Part shown: piece by piece, positions 254 to 9,075 of the stretch
Position numbering within the stretch: position 1 is the stretch's first letter
Layout: every line of letters starts with the position of its first letter
Source of the DNA: Nitrospinae bacterium RIFCSPLOWO2_12_FULL_45_22
GTDB taxonomy: Bacteria > 2-12-FULL-45-22
Direction of reading: 5' to 3'
DNA length: 9,277 nucleotides
Assembly: GCA_001803565.1 (NCBI GenBank)
Contig: MHDQ01000071.1
Coordinates: 1 to 9,277, forward strand
The notes under the pieces: model-generated
Seen by the model: only the letters and a program-made list of their open reading frames with translations
What the model was told of the DNA's origin: nothing
Databases searched by the model: none
Made by a program: the position numbers and the translations under genes

Positions 254-2341
254 ATGAAGAAAGTAGGAAGTTTACGGCTCATTGTTCTTCTATCGCTACT
301 GGTCGGATGCTTTGGCAGTATCGAAGACAGGAGGGACAAGTTCTTTGAGAAAGGGAAAAAGTATTATCATGAACAGAACTATGTAAAGGCGAGGCTAGAA
401 TTGAAAAATGCCGTCCAGATAGATCCTAAATTTGCTGAGGGTTATTACTGGCTCGGCCTGTGTGCCCTCCAGCTTCGAGACATCCGGCAGGCCTACAGCA
501 GTTTTTTTAAGGCCGTGGAATTAAACCCTGATCTATTAGAAGCCCAATTACAACTGGGTACACTACTACTATTGGCTAAACAACCAGATAAGGCCATGGA
601 GAGGGCGAATATTATCCTTTCACAAGAATCTCAGGATGTGAATGGTCTATCTCTTAAGGCTTCTATCCTGACTGCTCAGGGAGACCTGGCCGGGGCTATA
701 GATATACTCCAGGGGATAATAGAAAGACACCCGGAAAAGATCGATACCTATCTGATGATATCTGCTATCCTGGCCAGGCAGGGTAAACCCAAAAAGGCAG
801 AAGCGGCCTTGAAAAAAGGACTGGAGAGGGAGCCACAGAATATCTCGCTCCATCTGGCCCTCGCTACTCTTTATATGACCCAGAAGCGCTACCGGGATGC
901 GGAGAAGATATACCAAAAAATAGTGCAAACAGTACCTGAAAACCCGGATTACCGCCTCCTATTGGCCCGCTACTATAATACCACCGGTTACCCGGGAAAA
1001 GCGGAGTCCATATTGCGCTCGGTTGTCAAGGCAGATCTCAAGAGTGAGAAATATATGATTGAATTAGCGAGATTCTTGATCCGTCAGAAGCGACCTGGGG
1101 ATGCCGAGAAGGAGCTGATTAAATTTATTGAGAGTGTACCCAGTGCCTATAAGGTACGCTTCAGCCTGGGTGAATTATATGCCGCTACTAATCAGATGGA
1201 TAAGGCCGGAGAAACCTTCCGGAAGATCATCACCCTGGAGCCGGAGGGTGCCAATTCTGCCCGGGCAAAGAATGCCTTAGCAAAGGTCCATCTGGTCCAG
1301 GGCCGATATGATGAGGCCCTGAAGGAAACAGATGAGGCTATACAGAAAAATCCCAGGGACCTGGAGGCCCATCTGACCAAAGGGCAGATTTATCTTGCCA
1401 AGCGGGATGGGGTCAATGCCGTAGGGTATTTTCGGACAGTTATCAAAGAGAATCCTGACTATATCGAAGGATATGTTCTGTTGGCCAAGGCCCACCTCCT
1501 CAGTCGAGAACCGGCCCTGGCAGAGGAGCAATACAAGAAGGCCCTGTCTATAAGACCCGCATACCTGCCGGCCCTGGAAGGGTTAGGTGATCTGTACGTG
1601 CTCAAGAAAGACCTGGACAGGGCAGAAAAGACCTATCAGGAAATAAAAGAGCGCTTCCCCAAAAACCCCCTGGGTAGTTTCAAGCTAGGCGGGCTTTACC
1701 GCCTCCAAGGGCGGTATGAGCTGGCCGGACAAAATCTTGAGCAGGCTATAGAGCTATCGCCTGCCTGGCAATTGCCTTACCGAAACCTGGCTGAATTATA
1801 CATCCAGGAGGGAAAACTGGGGCCGGCAGAGGATAGCTTGCAAAAAGCCTTACAGATAAACCCTGACTCCTTTTCTATTATCCTGTTGCTCGGGAGCATT
1901 TATGAAAATAAGGGGGAAATCGAAAAGGCTATGGGTTGCTATCGGAACATCCTGGATAAGGATGCCAAATTTGCCCCGGCAGCGAATAATCTCGCCTATC
2001 TCCTTGCGGAATACTATCCTACCCAGGAGAATCTTGCTAAGGCCCTGGGCCTGGCAGAAAAGGCTGCTAGCCTCCACCCCGATAACCCTTTTATTGCCGA
2101 TACCCTGGGATGGGTGAAATACAGGCTTGGGAAAAGCGATGAGGCCATCATACATTTCACCAAGGCCCTTGAGGCGAAACCTGAGGAGCCCATCTTCCAT
2201 TATCATCTGGGGGCCGCCCTTTATGAAAAAGGCGATCAGCAGAAGGCCAGAGGGGCCTTACAAGCAGCCCTGAGAAAGGCAGAGACATCCGCTAACTGGC
2301 TGTCGGATGCCAAAAAATTAATGAATTTATTGGAACAGTAG
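254..2341 (+). CDS. PEP-CTERM-system TPR-repeat lipoprotein (PrsT-like)
   Basis: This 695-residue protein begins with a lipoprotein signal peptide (basic MKK, hydrophobic core, lipobox L16-V-G-C19), so it should be a membrane-anchored periplasmic lipoprotein. The rest is an almost unbroken array of tetratricopeptide repeats spaced about 34 residues (motifs such as AEGYYWLGLCALQLRD, AANNLAYLLAEY, IADTLGWVKYRLGK). TPR superhelices bind partner proteins. The early segment (GKKYYHEQNYVKARLELKNAVQIDPKF) and the ending with NNLAYLLAE and DTLGWVKY match the PEP-CTERM-system TPR lipoprotein family, whose members are usually longer (about 900 residues), so this is a short version. A role in EPS/PEP-CTERM export or assembly is inferred from family context and from the PEP-CTERM genes on both sides. 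The ATG has a GAAGGG ribosome site about seven bases upstream. No terminator follows before the next genes. Confidence 0.85.
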   Translation: MKKVGSLRLIVLLSLLVGCFGSIEDRRDKFFEKGKKYYHEQNYVKARLELKNAVQIDPKFAEGYYWLGLCALQLRDIRQAYSSFFKAVELNPDLLEAQLQLGTLLLLAKQPDKAMERANIILSQESQDVNGLSLKASILTAQGDLAGAIDILQGIIERHPEKIDTYLMISAILARQGKPKKAEAALKKGLEREPQNISLHLALATLYMTQKRYRDAEKIYQKIVQTVPENPDYRLLLARYYNTTGYPGKAESILRSVVKADLKSEKYMIELARFLIRQKRPGDAEKELIKFIESVPSAYKVRFSLGELYAATNQMDKAGETFRKIITLEPEGANSARAKNALAKVHLVQGRYDEALKETDEAIQKNPRDLEAHLTKGQIYLAKRDGVNAVGYFRTVIKENPDYIEGYVLLAKAHLLSREPALAEEQYKKALSIRPAYLPALEGLGDLYVLKKDLDRAEKTYQEIKERFPKNPLGSFKLGGLYRLQGRYELAGQNLEQAIELSPAWQLPYRNLAELYIQEGKLGPAEDSLQKALQINPDSFSIILLLGSIYENKGEIEKAMGCYRNILDKDAKFAPAANNLAYLLAEYYPTQENLAKALGLAEKAASLHPDNPFIADTLGWVKYRLGKSDEAIIHFTKALEAKPEEPIFHYHLGAALYEKGDQQKARGALQAALRKAETSANWLSDAKKLMNLLEQ

Positions 2342-2402
2342 AGAGAGTAAAAAAAATATCAAAAAATCGTAGCTAAAAATGGTTGATTAGTTGAAAGGAC
2401 CT

Positions 2403-2459
2403 ATGATAAAAATAAGAAACATTGAGGGAAGTGGGATCATTTTTCATGGTCTTTTCTAA
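2403..2459 (+). CDS. Possible 18-residue leader ORF upstream of the PEP-CTERM genes
   Basis: ATG at 2403 follows AAAGGA by a few bases and opens an 18-codon frame (MIKIRNIEGSGIIFHGLF) closing with TAA at 2457. Its first bases nearly duplicate the start of the next gene: AAAATAAGAAACATT occurs at both 2409-2423 and 2492-2506, so the peptide begins MIKIRNI where the neighbour begins MKIRNI. It could be a translated leader, or the stump of a duplicated PEP-CTERM gene start. The downstream residues are not hydrophobic enough to be a signal peptide. Evidence is only the ribosome site and the duplication. Confidence 0.25.
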   Translation: MIKIRNIEGSGIIFHGLF

Positions 2460-2488
2460 ACCAACGGTTCATGGGAGGTGTTATTATT

Positions 2489-3034
2489 ATGAAAATAAGA
2501 AACATTACCACCATCACATTTTTACTGATCTCGGTGATAGTATTTTCCTCGACCGAAACCGTTGCCGATAGCCGATTCTTCATGGTGGATGGGGACGATG
2601 CGGAAAATTCGGTGACGGCTACATTCATCAATGCTACCCCATACTCCTTCGGATTTTTGGATGAGACTTTGACTTTTGAAGAAATAGCGGGAGGCGGGGA
2701 ATTCGGTAGTTATGACTTTATAGGAGGAGAAGCCCCCAATTTTGCGCTGTATTTAGGAGATAGTTACCTGACCTTACTGACTGATGATGCTACCGTCACT
2801 TATTTGGGACCCATTGATTGGGAGAATTCGGAGAACCCTTCACTATCAACTGATTATTGGAGAGGGGCCTGGATAGCATGGGCTACACCATTCCCCGACA
2901 TCACAATAGGAATAACTACCAGTCATCCAAATGACGGCTTCTCCCCGGTTCCTATCCCCACTACTCTTCTCCTGCTTAGTACGGGGTTAGTAGCCCTGGT
3001 AGGGTTGAGGAGGAAGTACATAATTCAGGATTAA
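2489..3034 (+). CDS. Secreted PEP-CTERM sorting domain protein, 181 residues
   Basis: The chosen start is ATG 2489, eight bases after a strong GGGAGGTG; an in-frame ATG at 2471 lies upstream of that ribosome site and is unlikely. Residues 1-26 form a Sec signal peptide (MKIRN, then TTITFLLISVIVFSS, likely cut after TVA). The mature part is acidic, lacks cysteine and is rich in aromatic, Gly, Thr and Asp residues, with beta-like segments; I recognise no domain. Residues 154-181 are a PEP-CTERM tail: VPIPTT, a hydrophobic helix (LLLLSTGLVALVGL) and RRKY. The protein should be exported, then processed by an exosortase and released into or anchored in the EPS layer. Only 30 bases separate it from the next PEP-CTERM gene, so the two are probably co-transcribed. 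Its specific function is unknown. Confidence 0.85.
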   Translation: MKIRNITTITFLLISVIVFSSTETVADSRFFMVDGDDAENSVTATFINATPYSFGFLDETLTFEEIAGGGEFGSYDFIGGEAPNFALYLGDSYLTLLTDDATVTYLGPIDWENSENPSLSTDYWRGAWIAWATPFPDITIGITTSHPNDGFSPVPIPTTLLLLSTGLVALVGLRRKYIIQD

Positions 3035-3064
3035 AAGAGTATATTCGTAAATAAGGAGGGCGAG

Positions 3065-3766
3065 ATGAAAAGGGTGGTGAGATTTATAAAGATTTTATTA
3101 CTGGCTGCATCTTTAGTGATGATTAACGTCTTGCCAGCTAAGGCATCCTTGTGGGATGCGCCTGTTGATCCAGGCGATTATACGGGATCGCGTACCTCAG
3201 CCTCAGGGGGAGGAGTTTATGCAACCCAGAGCTGGGACAATGGCGGCTTCACCATCTCATGGGATATCACGAATAACAATGATGGTACATTAACATATAA
3301 GTACACACTAACTGGTGAGAAAAAAAGTATTTCCCACTTTATATTGGAACTGAGCGGTGATATCGAAGGCGATATTTTCGACGGATCGGATCCCTACCAA
3401 GGACCAGCGTCCTGGGGTCCCGGTCACGGCAATAGCAACCCGGGATTCCCTGAAGGAGCCGCCATATATGGAATCAAATTCGAATTTGGGGGTAGTCCGG
3501 TTACTTATACATTGGTAACCAACCGATTGCCGGTATGGGGAAATTTTTACGCTAAGGACGGCAAAGAAAGTGGTGACTTTCTTTTCGCTTATAACAATGC
3601 GCTAGCGCTTACTGGTTTTAATAGCGATGTGGAAAATGACTTCATAGCCCGTCCCAACAGTATTGTCCCCCTACCCGGTTCGATGGTTCTTTTCGGCACT
3701 GCACTCGTTGGTTTGCTGGTGTACGGTAGAGGGAAATTCAAGCCACAAAGATATAGGCTTCTTTAA
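3065..3766 (+). CDS. Secreted PEP-CTERM sorting domain protein, 233 residues
   Basis: ATG 3065 lies four bases after AAGGAGGG. A signal peptide covers residues 1-27 (MKRVVRFIK, hydrophobic LLLAASLVMI, cleavage after AKA). The mature chain has no cysteine and looks like an all-beta extracellular domain (WDNGGFTISWDITNNNDGTL, SISHFILELSGDI, VWGNFYAKDG). The phrases FYAKDG and NDGTLTYKYT recur in PEP-CTERM proteins I have seen, but they give no function. The tail at residues 201-233 is VPLPGS, a hydrophobic helix (MVLFGTALVGLLVY) and a basic end (GRGKFKPQRYR), longer after the helix than usual. It is the second gene of the PEP-CTERM pair and is followed by a hairpin-plus-T-run terminator about 80 bases downstream. 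Export through Sec and exosortase processing are family knowledge; the enzyme itself is not in the window. Confidence 0.85.
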   Translation: MKRVVRFIKILLLAASLVMINVLPAKASLWDAPVDPGDYTGSRTSASGGGVYATQSWDNGGFTISWDITNNNDGTLTYKYTLTGEKKSISHFILELSGDIEGDIFDGSDPYQGPASWGPGHGNSNPGFPEGAAIYGIKFEFGGSPVTYTLVTNRLPVWGNFYAKDGKESGDFLFAYNNALALTGFNSDVENDFIARPNSIVPLPGSMVLFGTALVGLLVYGRGKFKPQRYRLL

Positions 3767-4066: not shown

Positions 4067-4125
4067 ACTTCCCCTTCTCCATTTAGTTAAACTCATCGTA
4101 TATTATTCCATACTTGGGGTGCCAT

Positions 4126-4154
4126 ACCTGCCTGTGCTGGCACGGCAGACAGGT
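4126..4154. repeat. Palindromic repeat, single copy form (CCTGCCTGTGC family)
   Basis: ACCTGCCTGTGC faces GGCAGACAGGT across a short centre, an imperfect inverted repeat with one mismatch and a bulge. The same arms occur in the larger nested palindrome at 4378-4433, so this is a dispersed palindromic element. It lies in a stretch (4067-4344) with no recognisable gene on either strand. A 7-bp inverted repeat (AAGGGGT 4212-4218, ACCCCTT 4230-4236) is the only other structure seen there. Confidence 0.5.
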
Positions 4155-4377
4155 CGTGCAGAGGTCCATCTCACTCCTGAATGCAATGAAGGACCTTATC
4201 TGGAACAAACAAAGGGGTCTTTACCAGATACCCCTTGGTAACGATCTCTATAGCGCTTAAGGACTATTATCCGGTATGCCCCTTTAACTGCCCTCCCTAT
4301 CCGTTAGATTCGCTGTACTCACTACAGGCTTATCGCCTCTGAGACTACCTCCTTAACCCGATTAAATGTGCGGGTGG

Positions 4378-4433
4378 CCTGCCTGCCTGTGCGTAGCCTG
4401 CCTGTGCCTTGGCAGACAGGCACGCAGACAGGT
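4378..4433. repeat. Nested double palindrome of the same CCTGCCTGTGC family
   Basis: Two left arms (CCTGCCTGTGCG, then CCTGCCTGTGCC) are followed after TT by two right arms (GGCAGACAGG, then CGCAGACAGG). The inner pair forms one hairpin and the outer pair can extend it, as if one palindrome had inserted into the centre of another. It resembles the unit at 4126-4154 and lies just beyond the 3' limit of the transposase remnant. Open frames read through it on the minus strand are repetitive (AQAGYAQAGR) and not real protein. Confidence 0.55.
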
Positions 4434-4449
4434 CCATTAGGGTATCTCT

Positions 4450-4475
4450 TCCACATCGGGGGTACCCCCTGGGTG
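4450..4475. repeat. Direct repeat copy A (16-bp core around GGGTACCC)
   Basis: The core GGGTACCCCCTGGGTG (4460-4475) differs at one base from copy B at 4613-4628. Weaker similarity extends to about 27 bp, including TCCACA on one side in both copies. The two cores are exactly 153 bp apart. This copy lies four bases after the last transposase-like codon (VDKW). Confidence 0.55.
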
Positions 4476-4479
4476 CTAC

Positions 4480-4777
4480 CCACTTGTCTACATACACCTT
4501 CCCACAGGATAAACAAAAACCACTCTTACAACTAAAGGCTATCTTCTTCTCATCCCATCCACAATGAAAACACATGTAGCTACTGTAACCATAAGCTACA
4601 TCTCCACACCCCGGGTACCCCCAGGGTGATCTTCTCAATAATCCCATCATAATAAGGATCGTTATAGCCTGGATAAGAGAGCTTAAATCCTTCCCAATGA
4701 TCCCTAAATATCTGCTTGAAGCTCTCCTTATCAACCCCTTGTTCTCTTCCCACTTCTCTACCCCCTCCATCAATACT
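4480..4777 (-). pseudogene. Frameshifted N-terminal remnant of an IS91-type transposase
   Basis: On the minus strand, 4777-4628 encodes KESFKQIFRDHWEGFKLSYP followed by GYNDPYYDGIIEKI. After a frame change, 4611-4480 encodes GCGDVAYGYSSYMCFHCGW, then IAFSCKSGFCLSCGKVYVDK. Together these match the start of IS91-type (Y2, rolling-circle) transposases: a short helical lead and the zinc-binding module with CxxC, C and CxxC. The catalytic domain with its tyrosines is absent; beyond VDKW the frame encodes only palindromic repeat DNA. No start codon precedes the first segment, since a TAG at 4780-4778 blocks the frame. The remnant is non-functional. It lies just upstream of a chain-length gene that lacks its 5' end, so this element or its decay is the likely cause of that loss. 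The family call rests on remembered motifs, not an alignment. Confidence 0.7.
4603..4628. repeat. Direct repeat copy B, inside the transposase remnant
   Basis: The core GGGTACCCCCAGGGTG (4613-4628) lies at the point where the transposase reading frame changes. The two matching frames end at 4628 and resume at 4611, leaving 16 intervening bases (4612-4627), which is the core length. An insertion of the repeat would therefore explain the frameshift by itself. Confidence 0.55.
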
Positions 4778-4898
4778 CTAGATATTGGGCTATAAATCAT
4801 TAAAGTCTACCATATCTAGCAGAGAGGGTAAACTCTTTTCTACTTTGCTTCTCCCCCTACCCCCTTGGGATTCATCTCCTGAAAAACCGCATTATTAA

Positions 4899-5900
4899 AA
4901 TGAAAATTCCTATACTATCAAGATAAACTTCCAGGCCCGTGATTCCGGGCTGGCGTCCCGGGTAGCCAATACCCTGGCAGAGCCATATATCCAGTCTGAC
5001 CTTGAGGCCAAGCTCTCCGCTTCCCGGGAAGCTACCCATTGGCTGAGGCAGAAGCTAGAACCGCTAAAAGAGAAGGTAGAGGAGTCGGAAAGGGCTTTGC
5101 AGGAGTTTATGAGCGCTGAGCGTATCATCTCCTTACCTACCCTGGAAAAGGCCGAGAGGGGCAGTGAGAACATTGTTGCCCAGGGTCTGGCAGAACTCAA
5201 TACCGAGCTGACCAAGGCCAAGGCCGATCGGATTGCGCTGGAGACCATGACCCATGAGATGGAGCGCCTCGCCCAAAAACCAGGCATGCTGGAGGCACTG
5301 CCCGCAGCCATCAACAATTTGCTGGTCCAGGAGCTCAAGGCCGATTATGCCCGGCTCCTCGGTGAATACTCCACACTCAGTGAAAAGTATGGCCCCAGGC
5401 ATCCCAGAATCGTGCAGCTCCACTCCCACATAAAAGAGATGGAGGAAAAGATAGCCTATGAAGTAAACAAGATTGCCCGCAGTATAAGGACCCAATACCA
5501 GGCGGCATGCGCCCGCGAACAGAGCCTCCTAAATACCCTGGAGGAACAAAAGCAAGAAGCCCTGTCCCTCAACAAAAAGGTCATCCGCTATGGTGTCTTG
5601 AAAAGGGAAGTCGAGACCAATAAGCAGCTCTATGAGAACTTCCTTCTGCGTCTCAAAGAGACCAGCGCCACCGCGGGCTTGAAGACTACCAACATACGGA
5701 TCGTAGACCGGGCCGAGGTACCTGCTAGGCCCATAAAGCCCAGAATCATCCTTAACCTGGTTCTGGCCCTCATCTCCGGCCTTACCCTTGGCATTGGCAT
5801 GGCCTTTTTCCTGGACTATCTGGATAATAGCATCCGTACTCCCGAGGATGTAGAGCAGTACCTGCAACTGCCCATCCTGGGCATAATACCCCATCATTAG
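4899..5900 (+). pseudogene. 5'-truncated polysaccharide chain-length determinant (PCP/GNVR, PEP-CTERM locus type)
   Basis: The frame is open from 4899 (after TAA 4896-4898) to TAG 5898-5900 and lacks any start codon before TTG 5097 or ATG 5109, yet the homologous reading begins at once (YTIKINFQARDSGLASRVAN, then TLAEPYIQSDLEAKL). Domains in order are the tail of the Wzz-like periplasmic domain, a long coiled coil (about 4980-5560), the GNVR-type segment (YGPRHPRIVQL; YGVLKREVETNKQLYENFL), the second membrane helix (NLVLALISGLTLGIGMAFF) and a short cytoplasmic end (DNSIRTPEDVEQYL, LPILGIIP). Missing are the cytoplasmic N-terminus, the first membrane helix and most of the Wzz domain, probably 150 or more residues. 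Intact members set EPS chain length in the inner membrane and activate a partner BY-kinase, which is the next gene. Internal initiation would give about 265 residues with only one membrane helix, so normal function is doubtful. Confidence 0.8.
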
Positions 5901-5910
5901 GAATAGCAAA

Positions 5911-6834
5911 ATGAAAAACAAAAATAACGCCCTAATGGCTACAAGAGATAAAGAGAGGCCCCCGGCCATAGATTATTACCGCAACCTCTGGGCCAATATC
6001 CGGTTTAGTCGGATGGAAGGCCCCCTCAAGACCATACTGGTTACCAGCAGCATGGATGGGGAGGGGAAATCTACCCTGCTGGCTAATCTCGGCATGGTGA
6101 TAGCCCAGGCCGGCAAGCGTGTACTCCTGCTCGATACCGACCTGCGCGCTCCCGATCTCCACAAGCTTTTCCGTGTGAAGAGAGAACCCGGGATTACCGG
6201 GACCTTAAGGGATATCTTTGAGAGAGAGATAAAAAATGGCCTGTTCGAAGAGATTAGTCCGGCTGAGTACTTAAGGATCCTCAAACTCCAGGCCAGGACC
6301 GGCTATCTTACCTTTGAAAGCAATGACGAGTCCCTCACCCTGACCCTTGACCGGGGAACAGTAGTCGATACCTCATGGCAGAACAGGCCTTTGACCAGGA
6401 GGCTCGGTAACCTCCTGCTCAGGGACGGCAAGATAACCGGGGAACAACTTCAAGAGGCCCTTAACCGGCAGGATCAAAACAATAGTTCCTTGCCCCTGGG
6501 CCATATCATGATCAAGCTCGGCTATATCGCGCCCGCTGACATAAAAGGCCCATGCCAACACCAGATAAGCGAGGCTATTACCTATCTAATGCGCTGGCGT
6601 GAAGGAAGATTCTATTTTCAAGAAGGAGAAGATGTAACTTATGAAAAGGAAGTCATAAACCTCTTAACCGATCCGGACCCTTTCTCCCCGATGATAGAAC
6701 CCATGGCAGGCGGCCCTTATATAGAGACCAGTCTTTCCAGGGTAATACAGCCGACTATTATAGACAATCTCTGGGTTATGCCCAGTGGCCCCCTCCCACC
6801 CAACCCCACTGCCATACTGGAATCAGCAGGATGA
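5911..6834 (+). CDS. BY-kinase N-terminal half with inserted PATAN/DUF4388 and MshEN-like module
   Basis: Residues 17-104 are the front of a CpsD/CapB-type tyrosine kinase: lead helix (AIDYYRNLWANIRFSR), Walker A (SSMDGEGKST, 46-55), Walker A' (VLLLDTDLRAPDLH, 71-84) and PGITGTLRD. Residues 281-303 (IIDNLWVMPSGPLPPNP) are again kinase. Between them, residues 111-250 form an unusual insert. It starts PATAN/DUF4388-like (LRILKLQARTGYLTFES, LTLTLDRGTVVDT), holds two 24-residue MshEN-type motifs (164-187, RLGNLLLRDGKITGEQLQEA; 195-218, PLGHIMIKLGYIAPADI) and returns to PATAN (ITYLMRWREGRFYFQEGE). MshEN motifs in other proteins bind c-di-GMP; binding here is inferred. Walker B and the tyrosine tail are on the next ORF, which overlaps by ATGA. 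The ATG follows AGGA at the end of the chain-length gene, 10 bases away. The kinase would phosphorylate its own tail to control EPS assembly. Confidence 0.8.
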   Translation: MKNKNNALMATRDKERPPAIDYYRNLWANIRFSRMEGPLKTILVTSSMDGEGKSTLLANLGMVIAQAGKRVLLLDTDLRAPDLHKLFRVKREPGITGTLRDIFEREIKNGLFEEISPAEYLRILKLQARTGYLTFESNDESLTLTLDRGTVVDTSWQNRPLTRRLGNLLLRDGKITGEQLQEALNRQDQNNSSLPLGHIMIKLGYIAPADIKGPCQHQISEAITYLMRWREGRFYFQEGEDVTYEKEVINLLTDPDPFSPMIEPMAGGPYIETSLSRVIQPTIIDNLWVMPSGPLPPNPTAILESAG

Positions 6835-7121
6835 AGGAATTCTTACGGCTGCTGCGGGCACGGTTTGATATGGTCCTGCTCGACTCACCGCCCGTTATGG
6901 CGGTAGCCGATGCCAGTATTCTGTCTAGCCTGGTTGACGGTGTGATCCTGGTAGTACGTTCCGGTCTTTATCCCCGCAAGGTAATAAAAGATGCCAGGGA
7001 GCATCTGGAAGCAACCGGTGCCCGGCTCCTGGGCGTTGTTCTGAACGACATAAGCAGTAAAGATGGCGGGTATTATGTCCGTTATCCCTCCAGGTATTAT
7101 AAAAAAGAATCCGCCGTTTAG
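6831..7121 (+). CDS. BY-kinase C-terminal half: Walker B and tyrosine cluster
   Basis: These 96 residues continue the kinase fold: helix (MKEFLRLLRARFD), Walker B (MVLLDSPPVMAVADA, residues 14-28), then VDGVILVVRSG, a helical segment (VIKDAREHLEATG), RLLGVVLNDI, and a tyrosine-rich end with Y81, Y82, Y85, Y89 and Y90. That end is the autophosphorylation cluster typical of BY-kinases. ATG 6831 sits in an ATGA overlap with the TGA of the previous ORF, and no strong ribosome site precedes it, so expression would depend on translational coupling or on frameshifting. Nearly the whole family has both halves in one chain, and the join here (ILESAG then MKEF) is contiguous with a normal kinase lacking about one residue. 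One lost base, a real split kinase, or a sequencing error are all possible. Downstream there is no clear terminator. Confidence 0.8.
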   Translation: MKEFLRLLRARFDMVLLDSPPVMAVADASILSSLVDGVILVVRSGLYPRKVIKDAREHLEATGARLLGVVLNDISSKDGGYYVRYPSRYYKKESAV

Positions 7122-7632: not shown

Positions 7633-7638
7633 TCATTG

Positions 7639-8064
7639 ATGAATATCAATACGGCGGAAATTACCCTGCTTTTGAGGACATACCCTTTTATTGCTGCGGC
7701 TTACCTATTCGGTTCAAAGGTACATGGTTCAGGTGGCCCCTTGAGTGATCTGGATATCGCGATCTTAGTAGATGAGCAAGCACCTTCTGGCATTGACCTT
7801 CTGCGGATCGAGCTCATCCTTGCCTATGAGCTCCAAAAACGTCTCAACGTGCCGGAAGTTGACCTCATCAGCCTCAATCACCAACGACTAACCTTGCAGC
7901 AGACCGTCTTGCGGACAGGACGGTTGATTTACGATGCTAACCCAAAGTACCGCATCAGGTTCACCCAAAGAGTTATTCAAGCCTACTTGGACTTGCAACC
8001 CACCTTAGAGCTGATGGGTAAATTCCACACCCGGGGCCGGCTGAGGAGGTGCGGTATCCGGTGA
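7639..8064 (+). CDS. mntA: MntA-like nucleotidyltransferase antitoxin (type VII TA)
   Basis: This 141-residue minimal nucleotidyltransferase has the MntA signature GS-x10-D-x-D: G25 S26, then D37 and D39 (SDLDIAILVDE), with a third carboxylate at D75 (EVDLISL). In characterised MntA/HepT pairs the antitoxin transfers AMP from ATP to a tyrosine of the HepT toxin and so silences its RNase. All three metal-binding acidic residues are present, so it should be active. The start chosen is ATG 7639; the TTG at 7636 is in frame but less likely. No strong ribosome site is seen. Its TGA (8062-8064) overlaps the GTG start of hepT by four bases (GTGA), the tight coupling expected of a TA operon. The C-terminal end (FHTRGRLRRCGIR) is basic. 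Confidence 0.85.
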   Translation: MNINTAEITLLLRTYPFIAAAYLFGSKVHGSGGPLSDLDIAILVDEQAPSGIDLLRIELILAYELQKRLNVPEVDLISLNHQRLTLQQTVLRTGRLIYDANPKYRIRFTQRVIQAYLDLQPTLELMGKFHTRGRLRRCGIR

Positions 8065-8486
8065 GGAAAGAAGATGTGCAGAGCAAGCTCGATATTATTC
8101 CGGAGAATCTGGAAAAACTCGCGATCCTCCGGGCCATGAGCTATGAAGAATTCAAATCCGATTTCCGCAACATCGACTCAGTCTTGCATCGCCTTCAGAC
8201 CTCCATCCAAGCCCTGGTAGATATTGGGGGTTACATAATTGCCTCACTTGGGTTACGGACTCCGAGCGCCAGTGGGGAAGTGATCGACATCTTGGTGGAG
8301 CATAGCCTCATTAAGATCGACCAAAGAGAGCGATTCATTTCGATGATCCAGTTTCGCAATCGTATCGCCTATTTCTATAACAACATTGATCTAAAGATCC
8401 TTTACCGGATCCTTCAAGATGAGCTGGTCGACATCCGCGAGCTTTATCAGACGCTCATTCAGATCATTGAAGAACACCCCGAATGA
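8061..8486 (+). CDS. hepT: HepT-like HEPN toxin with altered active site (His to Tyr)
   Basis: This 141-residue all-helical HEPN protein is of the HepT type (DVQSKLDIIPENLEKLAIL; FRNIDSVLHRLQTSIQALVD). GTG 8061 is chosen over an in-frame GTG at 8049 because GAGGAGGT (8043-8050) lies ten bases before it and because it overlaps the mntA stop. The HepT RNase motif is R-x4-H-x-Y. Here residues 99-106 read RNRIAYFY: R99 and the AMP-acceptor position Y106 are kept, but the catalytic histidine is Y104 (codon TAT, 8370-8372), one base from CAT. By family knowledge, loss of this histidine should abolish RNA cleavage, so the toxin may be inactive or repurposed. The length and the rest of the fold look intact. 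No terminator directly follows. Confidence 0.85.
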   Translation: MRKEDVQSKLDIIPENLEKLAILRAMSYEEFKSDFRNIDSVLHRLQTSIQALVDIGGYIIASLGLRTPSASGEVIDILVEHSLIKIDQRERFISMIQFRNRIAYFYNNIDLKILYRILQDELVDIRELYQTLIQIIEEHPE

Positions 8487-8742: not shown

Positions 8743-8787
8743 TGATTCGCTCTAGATCCAGGATAACTTTACCCTGCAAGCGAATCA
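8743..8787. repeat. 9-bp inverted repeat at the 3' end of the CopG-like gene
   Basis: TGATTCGCT (8743-8751) and AGCGAATCA (8779-8787) are perfect inverted arms 27 bases apart. The right arm includes the stop codon of the minus-strand gene. It might form a 3' structure on that transcript, but lacks a T-run. Confidence 0.35.
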
Positions 8788-9075
8788 CTTCGCTTCTAAG
8801 ATCTTTTCCACTTTTTCGAGAAGCCACTTATGAACTAAAGCTTGTGGAGATAGCCCCTCTTGGTCTGCAATATGCCGGATTTGTTGGCTGAGCTTCTTCT
8901 CCACCACAATAGTCTCTTCAACCTCAGTGAGCGAATCCAGAATCTGGATAGTAAGGGGTGATGCTACCTCAAAAGCGACTTCCGTGGCCTCCAAATCGGC
9001 AGTGGAATGGCTATCTAACCACTCGGCTGCTTCCTCGTAATTCTCGAATTGGGGTAGAGTTTTATGTTTTCGCAT
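8785..9075 (-). CDS. CopG-family (ribbon-helix-helix) antitoxin-like protein
   Basis: The 96-residue protein begins MRKHKTLPQFENYEEAAEWLDSHSTADL, the pattern of CopG-type antitoxins whose N-terminus has an acidic E-x-A-x-(F/W)-(W/L)-D-x-H segment. Residues about 60-90 (VVEKKLSQQIRHIADQEGLS, then LVHKWLLEKV) resemble a ribbon-helix-helix DNA-binding module: a strand, then two helices. Such antitoxins neutralise a toxin and repress their own operon. It begins six bases after the stop of the Doc-like gene, with a weak TGAGGCG ribosome site, so the two are co-transcribed. The order (toxin first, antitoxin second) is the reverse of most Phd/Doc operons, and CopG antitoxins more often pair with BrnT or RelE toxins, so the partnership is an inference. 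Confidence 0.7.
   Translation of the reverse strand: MRKHKTLPQFENYEEAAEWLDSHSTADLEATEVAFEVASPLTIQILDSLTEVEETIVVEKKLSQQIRHIADQEGLSPQALVHKWLLEKVEKILEAK

Follow-up and report, generated by a model that had tools for sequence, protein, structure and literature searches.

A DUF4388/PATAN domain inserted in the catalytic domain of BY-kinases, found in a probably decayed gene and in intact relatives mainly of Desulfobacterota

Two adjoining open reading frames in the 9,277-nucleotide stretch analysed here (the window) are best read as one BY-kinase gene whose catalytic domain has acquired, probably once, a DUF4388 insert that would act as an internal regulatory or docking domain, and the window copy itself is most likely non-functional. 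We regard this reading as a whole as reasonably likely. BY-kinases are cytoplasmic tyrosine autokinases that work with a polysaccharide co-polymerase (PCP) to set exopolysaccharide chain length. Their known cycle is autophosphorylation against a phosphatase. A folded PATAN/DUF4388 domain at one site of the catalytic domain across deep divergence is a direct candidate for a signal input into Wzy-type polysaccharide export, and DUF4388, found in many bacteria with no function assigned, gains an enzymatic context where its effect would be measurable. Since the copy in the window looks broken, the finding carries less weight for this genome. As far as the literature searched shows, the DUF4388-bearing kinase variant is undescribed; the search found no earlier description of PATAN joined to a bacterial tyrosine kinase.

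Wzc and the BY-kinases of the CapB/CpsD/EpsG type (TIGR01007 eps_fam) are P-loop kinases that share Walker A, A' and B motifs, a C-terminal tyrosine cluster and an adjacent or fused Wzz/GNVR co-polymerase. The same kinase motifs are present in the window, divided between two frames:

5911..6834, + strand: ORF1, N-terminal half of the BY-kinase plus the insert (TIGR01007 85.3 bits in two stretches, cut-off 108; CapB alignment)
6046..6075, + strand: Walker A (TSSMDGEGKS), from the sequence, kept in 25 of 25 family members
6121..6147, + strand: Walker A' (VLLLDTDLR), from the sequence
6214..6723, + strand: insert, residues 102-271, a complete DUF4388/PATAN domain with linkers (PF14332; boundaries from four insert-free kinases)
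6400..6471, + strand: MshEN-like motif I, R164-Q187, with six of six key residues (RLG..L..L..Q; NF053729)
6493..6564, + strand: MshEN-like motif II, P195-Q218, with three of six key residues replaced (R1P, L17I, L21C)
6724..6828, + strand: resumption of the kinase, TSLSRVIQPTIIDNLWVMPSGPLPPNPTAILESA (CapB alignment and four insert-free kinases)
6826..6834, + strand: break point GCAGGATGA, an ATGA overlap of the ORF1 stop and the ORF2 ATG (reading frames; family alignment)
6831..7121, + strand: ORF2, 96 aa, in the -1 frame, encoding the C-terminal part of the ORF1 kinase (TIGR01007 71.4 bits, profile positions 117-203; alignment with the relatives L069-L071)
6870-6893, + strand: Walker B (MVLLDSPP) in ORF2, from the sequence
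7071-7100, + strand: tyrosine cluster (YYVRYPSRYY) in ORF2, from the sequence

A sequence-only reading of the window had recognised, in the frame at 5911-6834, a BY-kinase with Walker A and A', an insert and a resumption of the kinase, and this is confirmed. It had also treated the gene as intact, which does not hold: ORF1 (307 aa) is closed by the TGA at 6832-6834 ahead of Walker B, and the kinase continues in the -1 frame as ORF2, which supplies Walker B and the C-terminal tyrosine cluster typical of BY-kinases. The three Walker motifs, which lie in one chain in intact relatives, are thus split, both window pieces score below the TIGR01007 cut-off, and with a stop before Walker B the gene is unable to encode the full kinase chain.

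The extent of the insert was defined by alignment with CapB1 (4jlv), in which window residues 9-97 correspond to 52-140 and residues 273-304 to 146-177. Whereas CapB has about 5 residues between A' and B, the insert family has a DUF4388 domain of about 170 residues in their place, with no kinase residues lost. Four insert-free kinases yield the same boundaries, which are somewhat wider than the 6228-6690 first proposed. The kinase sequence of ORF1 restarts at TSLSRVIQPTIIDNLWVMPSGPLPPNP, and the segment following the DUF4388 domain ends in PPNPTAILESAG. Identification of the insert as PATAN/DUF4388 is borne out by PF14332, which matches residues 110-244 (E=1.3e-19, 70.8 bits, gathering cut-off 25).

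Within the insert, two 24-residue motifs joined by a seven-residue spacer lie exactly where the sequence-only reading had placed them. They had been read as MshEN-type motifs. When about 24 DUF4388 proteins from other phyla are aligned with the window insert, it is colinear with them over its whole length, both motifs included. We therefore rejected the addition of an MshEN pair onto PATAN, since ordinary DUF4388 proteins carry the pair too; judged by these alignments, the pair is the helical middle that DUF4388 normally has and not a foreign addition. In line with this, the paper that first described PATAN, Makarova et al. 2006 (in the references of PMC7690835), speaks in its title of a domain "with an alpha-helical insertion". 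The PATAN domains of the response regulators PatA, PixG and PixE are likewise complete domains with a helical middle part, but they lie N-terminal to a receiver domain, whereas the window domain lies inside a kinase catalytic domain. We also rejected an origin of the insert from a paralogue within this genome, where the window insert is the only DUF4388 match.

A single-sequence model of the window protein was discarded (pLDDT 34), and the intact relative L069, about 30% identical to the window protein, was modelled from an alignment of 50 rows (pLDDT 82, pTM 0.79). Superposed on CapA1B1 (4jlv), its two kinase halves align with 202 of the 228 residues of that structure (Z 30.1, 1.6 A), the insert being skipped. 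The secondary structure of the L069 insert in the model is as follows:

118-120: strand
126-135: helix
140-145: strand
150-156: strand
159-161: strand
171-234: helices
240-244: strand

This order of strands, helices and a closing strand fits PATAN with a helical middle. In the L069 model, the insert is thus shown as a separate predicted fold within an undisturbed BY-kinase fold, although for a relative and not for the window protein. The PDB fold matches listed for kinase and insert queried together cover the kinase, and none of those listed is an MshEN or PATAN hit to the insert.

The position of the insert between A' and B, which the sequence-only reading had singled out as unusual, proved to be conserved in 24 other kinases. 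Scanning the genome contigs with the window protein alone gave no match; the family was found with an alignment of the kinase halves as query, the DUF4388-domain alignment being too divergent for searching. The first intact kinases with an insert at the same site, matched over nearly the whole query, came from a deltaproteobacterial MAG (L069), a Desulfobulbaceae (L070) and the cable bacterium Candidatus Electronema (L071). A profile built from these three and the window (whose two ORFs were joined in script for trees and similarity search only) recovered insert-bearing kinases in 11 of 257 genomes of L070's class and in 13 of 395 sampled genomes of L069's phylum. Because G102 (L070's class) recurs in the sample of L069's phylum, we infer that L069 and L070 belong to one phylum, Desulfobacterota by L070's name. 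The family comprises 25 distinct members, the window and 24 intact kinases, mainly of Desulfobacterota. At strict cut-offs, no insert-bearing kinase was found in the 195 genomes of G029's phylum or in the seven of G036's phylum, in searches run without a positive control. Two other BY-kinases of the window genome, both intact PCP-kinase fusions (L002 and L003), have no insert. One of them, L002 (G000:C92), has about 150 extra residues after its tyrosine cluster.

Intact members retain the hallmarks of functional kinases. Walker A, A' and B are kept, 22 of the 24 relatives have 4-9 tyrosines in their last 25 residues, and the TIGR01007 cut-off is exceeded in L069 (176), L070 (166), L071 (165) and L171/L177 (203). 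Given these motifs, the insert-bearing relatives should be active enzymes. Two of them, L174 and L176, have extended C-termini, and the tyrosine cluster is absent from their last 25 residues. In 24 of 25 members the kinase lies beside a PCP or is joined to it in one chain, and many have a TPR protein downstream. In L167, L172, L173 and L175 the PCP is fused in front of the insert-bearing kinase in single open frames of 862-962 aa; the presence of the insert in both fused (PCP-2a style) and separate kinases indicates that it tolerates both gene arrangements. The nearest relative of the window is L171, with identities of 53% in the N-terminal kinase half, 32% in the insert and 49.5% in the co-polymerase, and its locus (L177) is an EpsL-EpsE-EpsF-kinase-Gmd-Fcl-ABC polysaccharide cluster. 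The gene context resembles that of XrtA/XrtB-associated EpsG and pepcterm_TyrKin, with EpsE/EpsF-like export and PEP-CTERM genes, but the window scores far below the corresponding models (TIGR03029 73.6, equivalog cut-off 313.8; TIGR03018 59.4, cut-off 230.65).

If the insert was acquired once, the insert-bearing kinases are expected to group together. A free kinase-domain tree requires four changes of insert state, with most of its deep forks weak. A tree holding the 25 insert-bearing kinases together reached a log-likelihood 16.7 above the free search and was not rejected (p-AU 0.756). In a tree with 24 other DUF4388 domains, a single branch also separates the inserts from all the rest (SH-aLRT 90). 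The simplest reading of these trees, although not proven, is that a single insertion probably took place and has been retained since.

Retention bears on whether the insert does anything at all. It might be an inert decoration or spacer without a regulatory role, consistent with the low identity among inserts (20-32% between the window and the others) and with the drift of the MshEN key residues. However, its length is 167-170 aa in 24 of 25 members over deep divergence, where erosion or loss would be expected of an inert segment, and in the L069 model the domain forms one self-contained fold; an inert insert is thus quite improbable. The exception in length is L163, with 150 residues; in L163/L164 (G138) most of motif I and the spacer are deleted and the kinase frame is open.

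A role in c-di-GMP sensing had been proposed from the two motifs, such that the MshEN-like pair in DUF4388 would switch the tyrosine kinase and couple the messenger to polysaccharide chain length. Each of the 24-residue motifs of MshE holds one half of the ligand, with six residues per motif in key roles (PMC5013675). The kinase inserts share with MshE, PilB and PilF the two tandem 24-residue motifs and, in the window, a match to NF053729, the MshE-related c-di-GMP motif (residues 164-211, 46 bits, cut-off 38). The cut-off is also exceeded in L069 (41.5 bits), L070 (40.4) and L171/L177 (39.5), and the insert resembles the MshEN domains of PilF, MshE and PilB in the PDB in sequence. Motif I is intact in the window, motif II is intact in several relatives, and imperfect motifs can still bind (PMC5013675). 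The host genome encodes GGDEF proteins, so c-di-GMP is probably available.

The motifs themselves argue against such a gate. The near position-by-position fit claimed earlier is good for motif I, with all six key residues, but not for motif II, whose key residues read P-L-G-I-C-Q in the window. The change of L21 to C corresponds to one listed for the non-binder XpsE, which lost binding through changes that include L58C (PMC5013675), and in MshE the substitution G11I abolished binding (PMC5013675). Across the family, the motif-I arginine is kept in 3 of 25 members and the motif-I glycine in 6 of 25 (lost in 22 and 19, respectively), every member has at least one degenerate motif, and none has all 12 key residues, the best having 10. 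The motifs also differ from those of MshE, PilB and PilF in lying inside a DUF4388 fold, and the spacer of 7 residues in the window compares with 5 in MshE and most relatives. DUF4388 and NF053729 exceed their curated cut-offs, but Pfam MshEN/T2SSE_N has no match to the window protein up to E=1. Free-standing DUF4388 domains have key-residue scores comparable to those of the kinase inserts. Because the key residues drift and non-kinase DUF4388 domains look similar, we favour reading the pair as an element of the common fold over reading it as a conserved site for c-di-GMP. The inference of a c-di-GMP-gated kinase is therefore weak: gating is possible but, on balance, unlikely, and it is not supported as a family function. 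PATAN domains of cyanobacterial regulators dock on type IV pilus motor ATPases such as PilB (PMC7690835, PMC10519157), which makes a protein-docking role of the insert at least as likely as c-di-GMP binding.

We propose that an ancestor gained DUF4388/PATAN in the loop that leads from the A' strand to the PPNP region in the catalytic domain, probably once, and that site and size have since been kept in kinases mainly of Desulfobacterota. As an internal regulatory or docking domain, the insert would take a state set by a bound partner protein or, less likely, by a cyclic dinucleotide. Such a state may change the kinase ring or its assembly, or how freely the tyrosine tail reaches the neighbouring active site and becomes phosphorylated, and would in this way tune polysaccharide chain length or export. 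A stronger form of this proposal, in which the Desulfobacterota kinases, including those of cable bacteria, are switched allosterically by a built-in PATAN/MshEN-like sensor, possibly of c-di-GMP, seems to us rather doubtful; if true, a signal would act directly on polysaccharide chain length and not via transcription or a synthase.

In the window, this function of the insert has most likely been lost, and the two intact insert-free BY-kinases of the genome could substitute. The kinase break is accompanied by a second defect immediately upstream:

4905..5900, + strand: 5'-truncated PCP (EpsF-like) gene retaining GNVR and the TM2 part (GNVR PF13807, E=1.1e-17; no Wzz)
4345..4800, - strand: remnant of an IS91-type transposase, zinc-binding domain (PF14319 Zn_Tnp_IS91, E=2.6e-9, 37.4 bits, cut-off 26.3)

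The Wzz/TM1 part of the PCP is missing, and there is no in-frame ATG near its 5' end. It matches residues 172-489 of the 499-aa PCP of L069, so that the first ~170 residues, the N-terminal third, have been lost. The full-length Wzz/GNVR partner typical of PCP-2b is thus absent from the window, whereas the L069 PCP is complete and matched by both Wzz and GNVR. The transposase remnant adjoins the missing end of the gene. Beside the remnant lies a repeat-rich stretch (4110-4470) of CCTGCCTGTGC / GGCAGACAGG-like units.

The break in the kinase would be explained by the loss of a single base from an ancestral ESA-R-MKEFL. All 24 relatives read through this point without interruption, in open frames without internal stops. 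Programmed -1 frameshifting is not supported, since GCA GGA TGA contains no slippery heptamer and the break occurs in no relative. ORF1 and ORF2 could instead be translationally coupled and assemble one kinase domain from two polypeptides. ATGA overlaps are a usual coupling arrangement, the start of ORF2 coincides with a Met codon in the family alignment, and the codon-position GC of both ORFs is still coding-like. However, none of the 24 relatives is split here, the sequence is what single-base loss would leave, the ATG at 6831 has no good Shine-Dalgarno at the proper distance, and the partner PCP is likewise shortened. We consider a two-polypeptide kinase very improbable.

An assembly error could account for the frameshift, and perhaps for the PCP truncation too, in which case the strain would carry an intact insert-bearing kinase. 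The window makes up an entire 9.3-kb contig, the assembly it belongs to is fragmented (321 contigs, 85% complete), and the region upstream of the PCP is rich in repeats. The truncation is a defect independent of the frameshift and could itself reflect misassembly near these repeats. Two independent defects in adjoining genes, one of them near a transposase remnant, nevertheless suggest real decay, and we give assembly error some weight as a minority possibility. Thus, with a frameshifted kinase and a shortened PCP, the window locus looks like decay, and the copy is most likely non-functional.

Other window genes lie on either side of the PCP and kinase. Upstream (254-3766), a PrsT-type TPR lipoprotein (TIGR02917 above cut-off) precedes two proteins whose C-termini are weakly PEP-CTERM/VPDSG-like. 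An Rfam search of the window gave no match. Downstream, an MntA-like nucleotidyltransferase (PF18765) and a HepT-like ribonuclease (PF01934, E=9.1e-26) overlap at 7636-8486 as a typical MntA-HepT toxin-antitoxin pair, and a small CopG-type antitoxin-like protein (8785-9075, - strand; PF12441, below cut-off) lies near the contig end.
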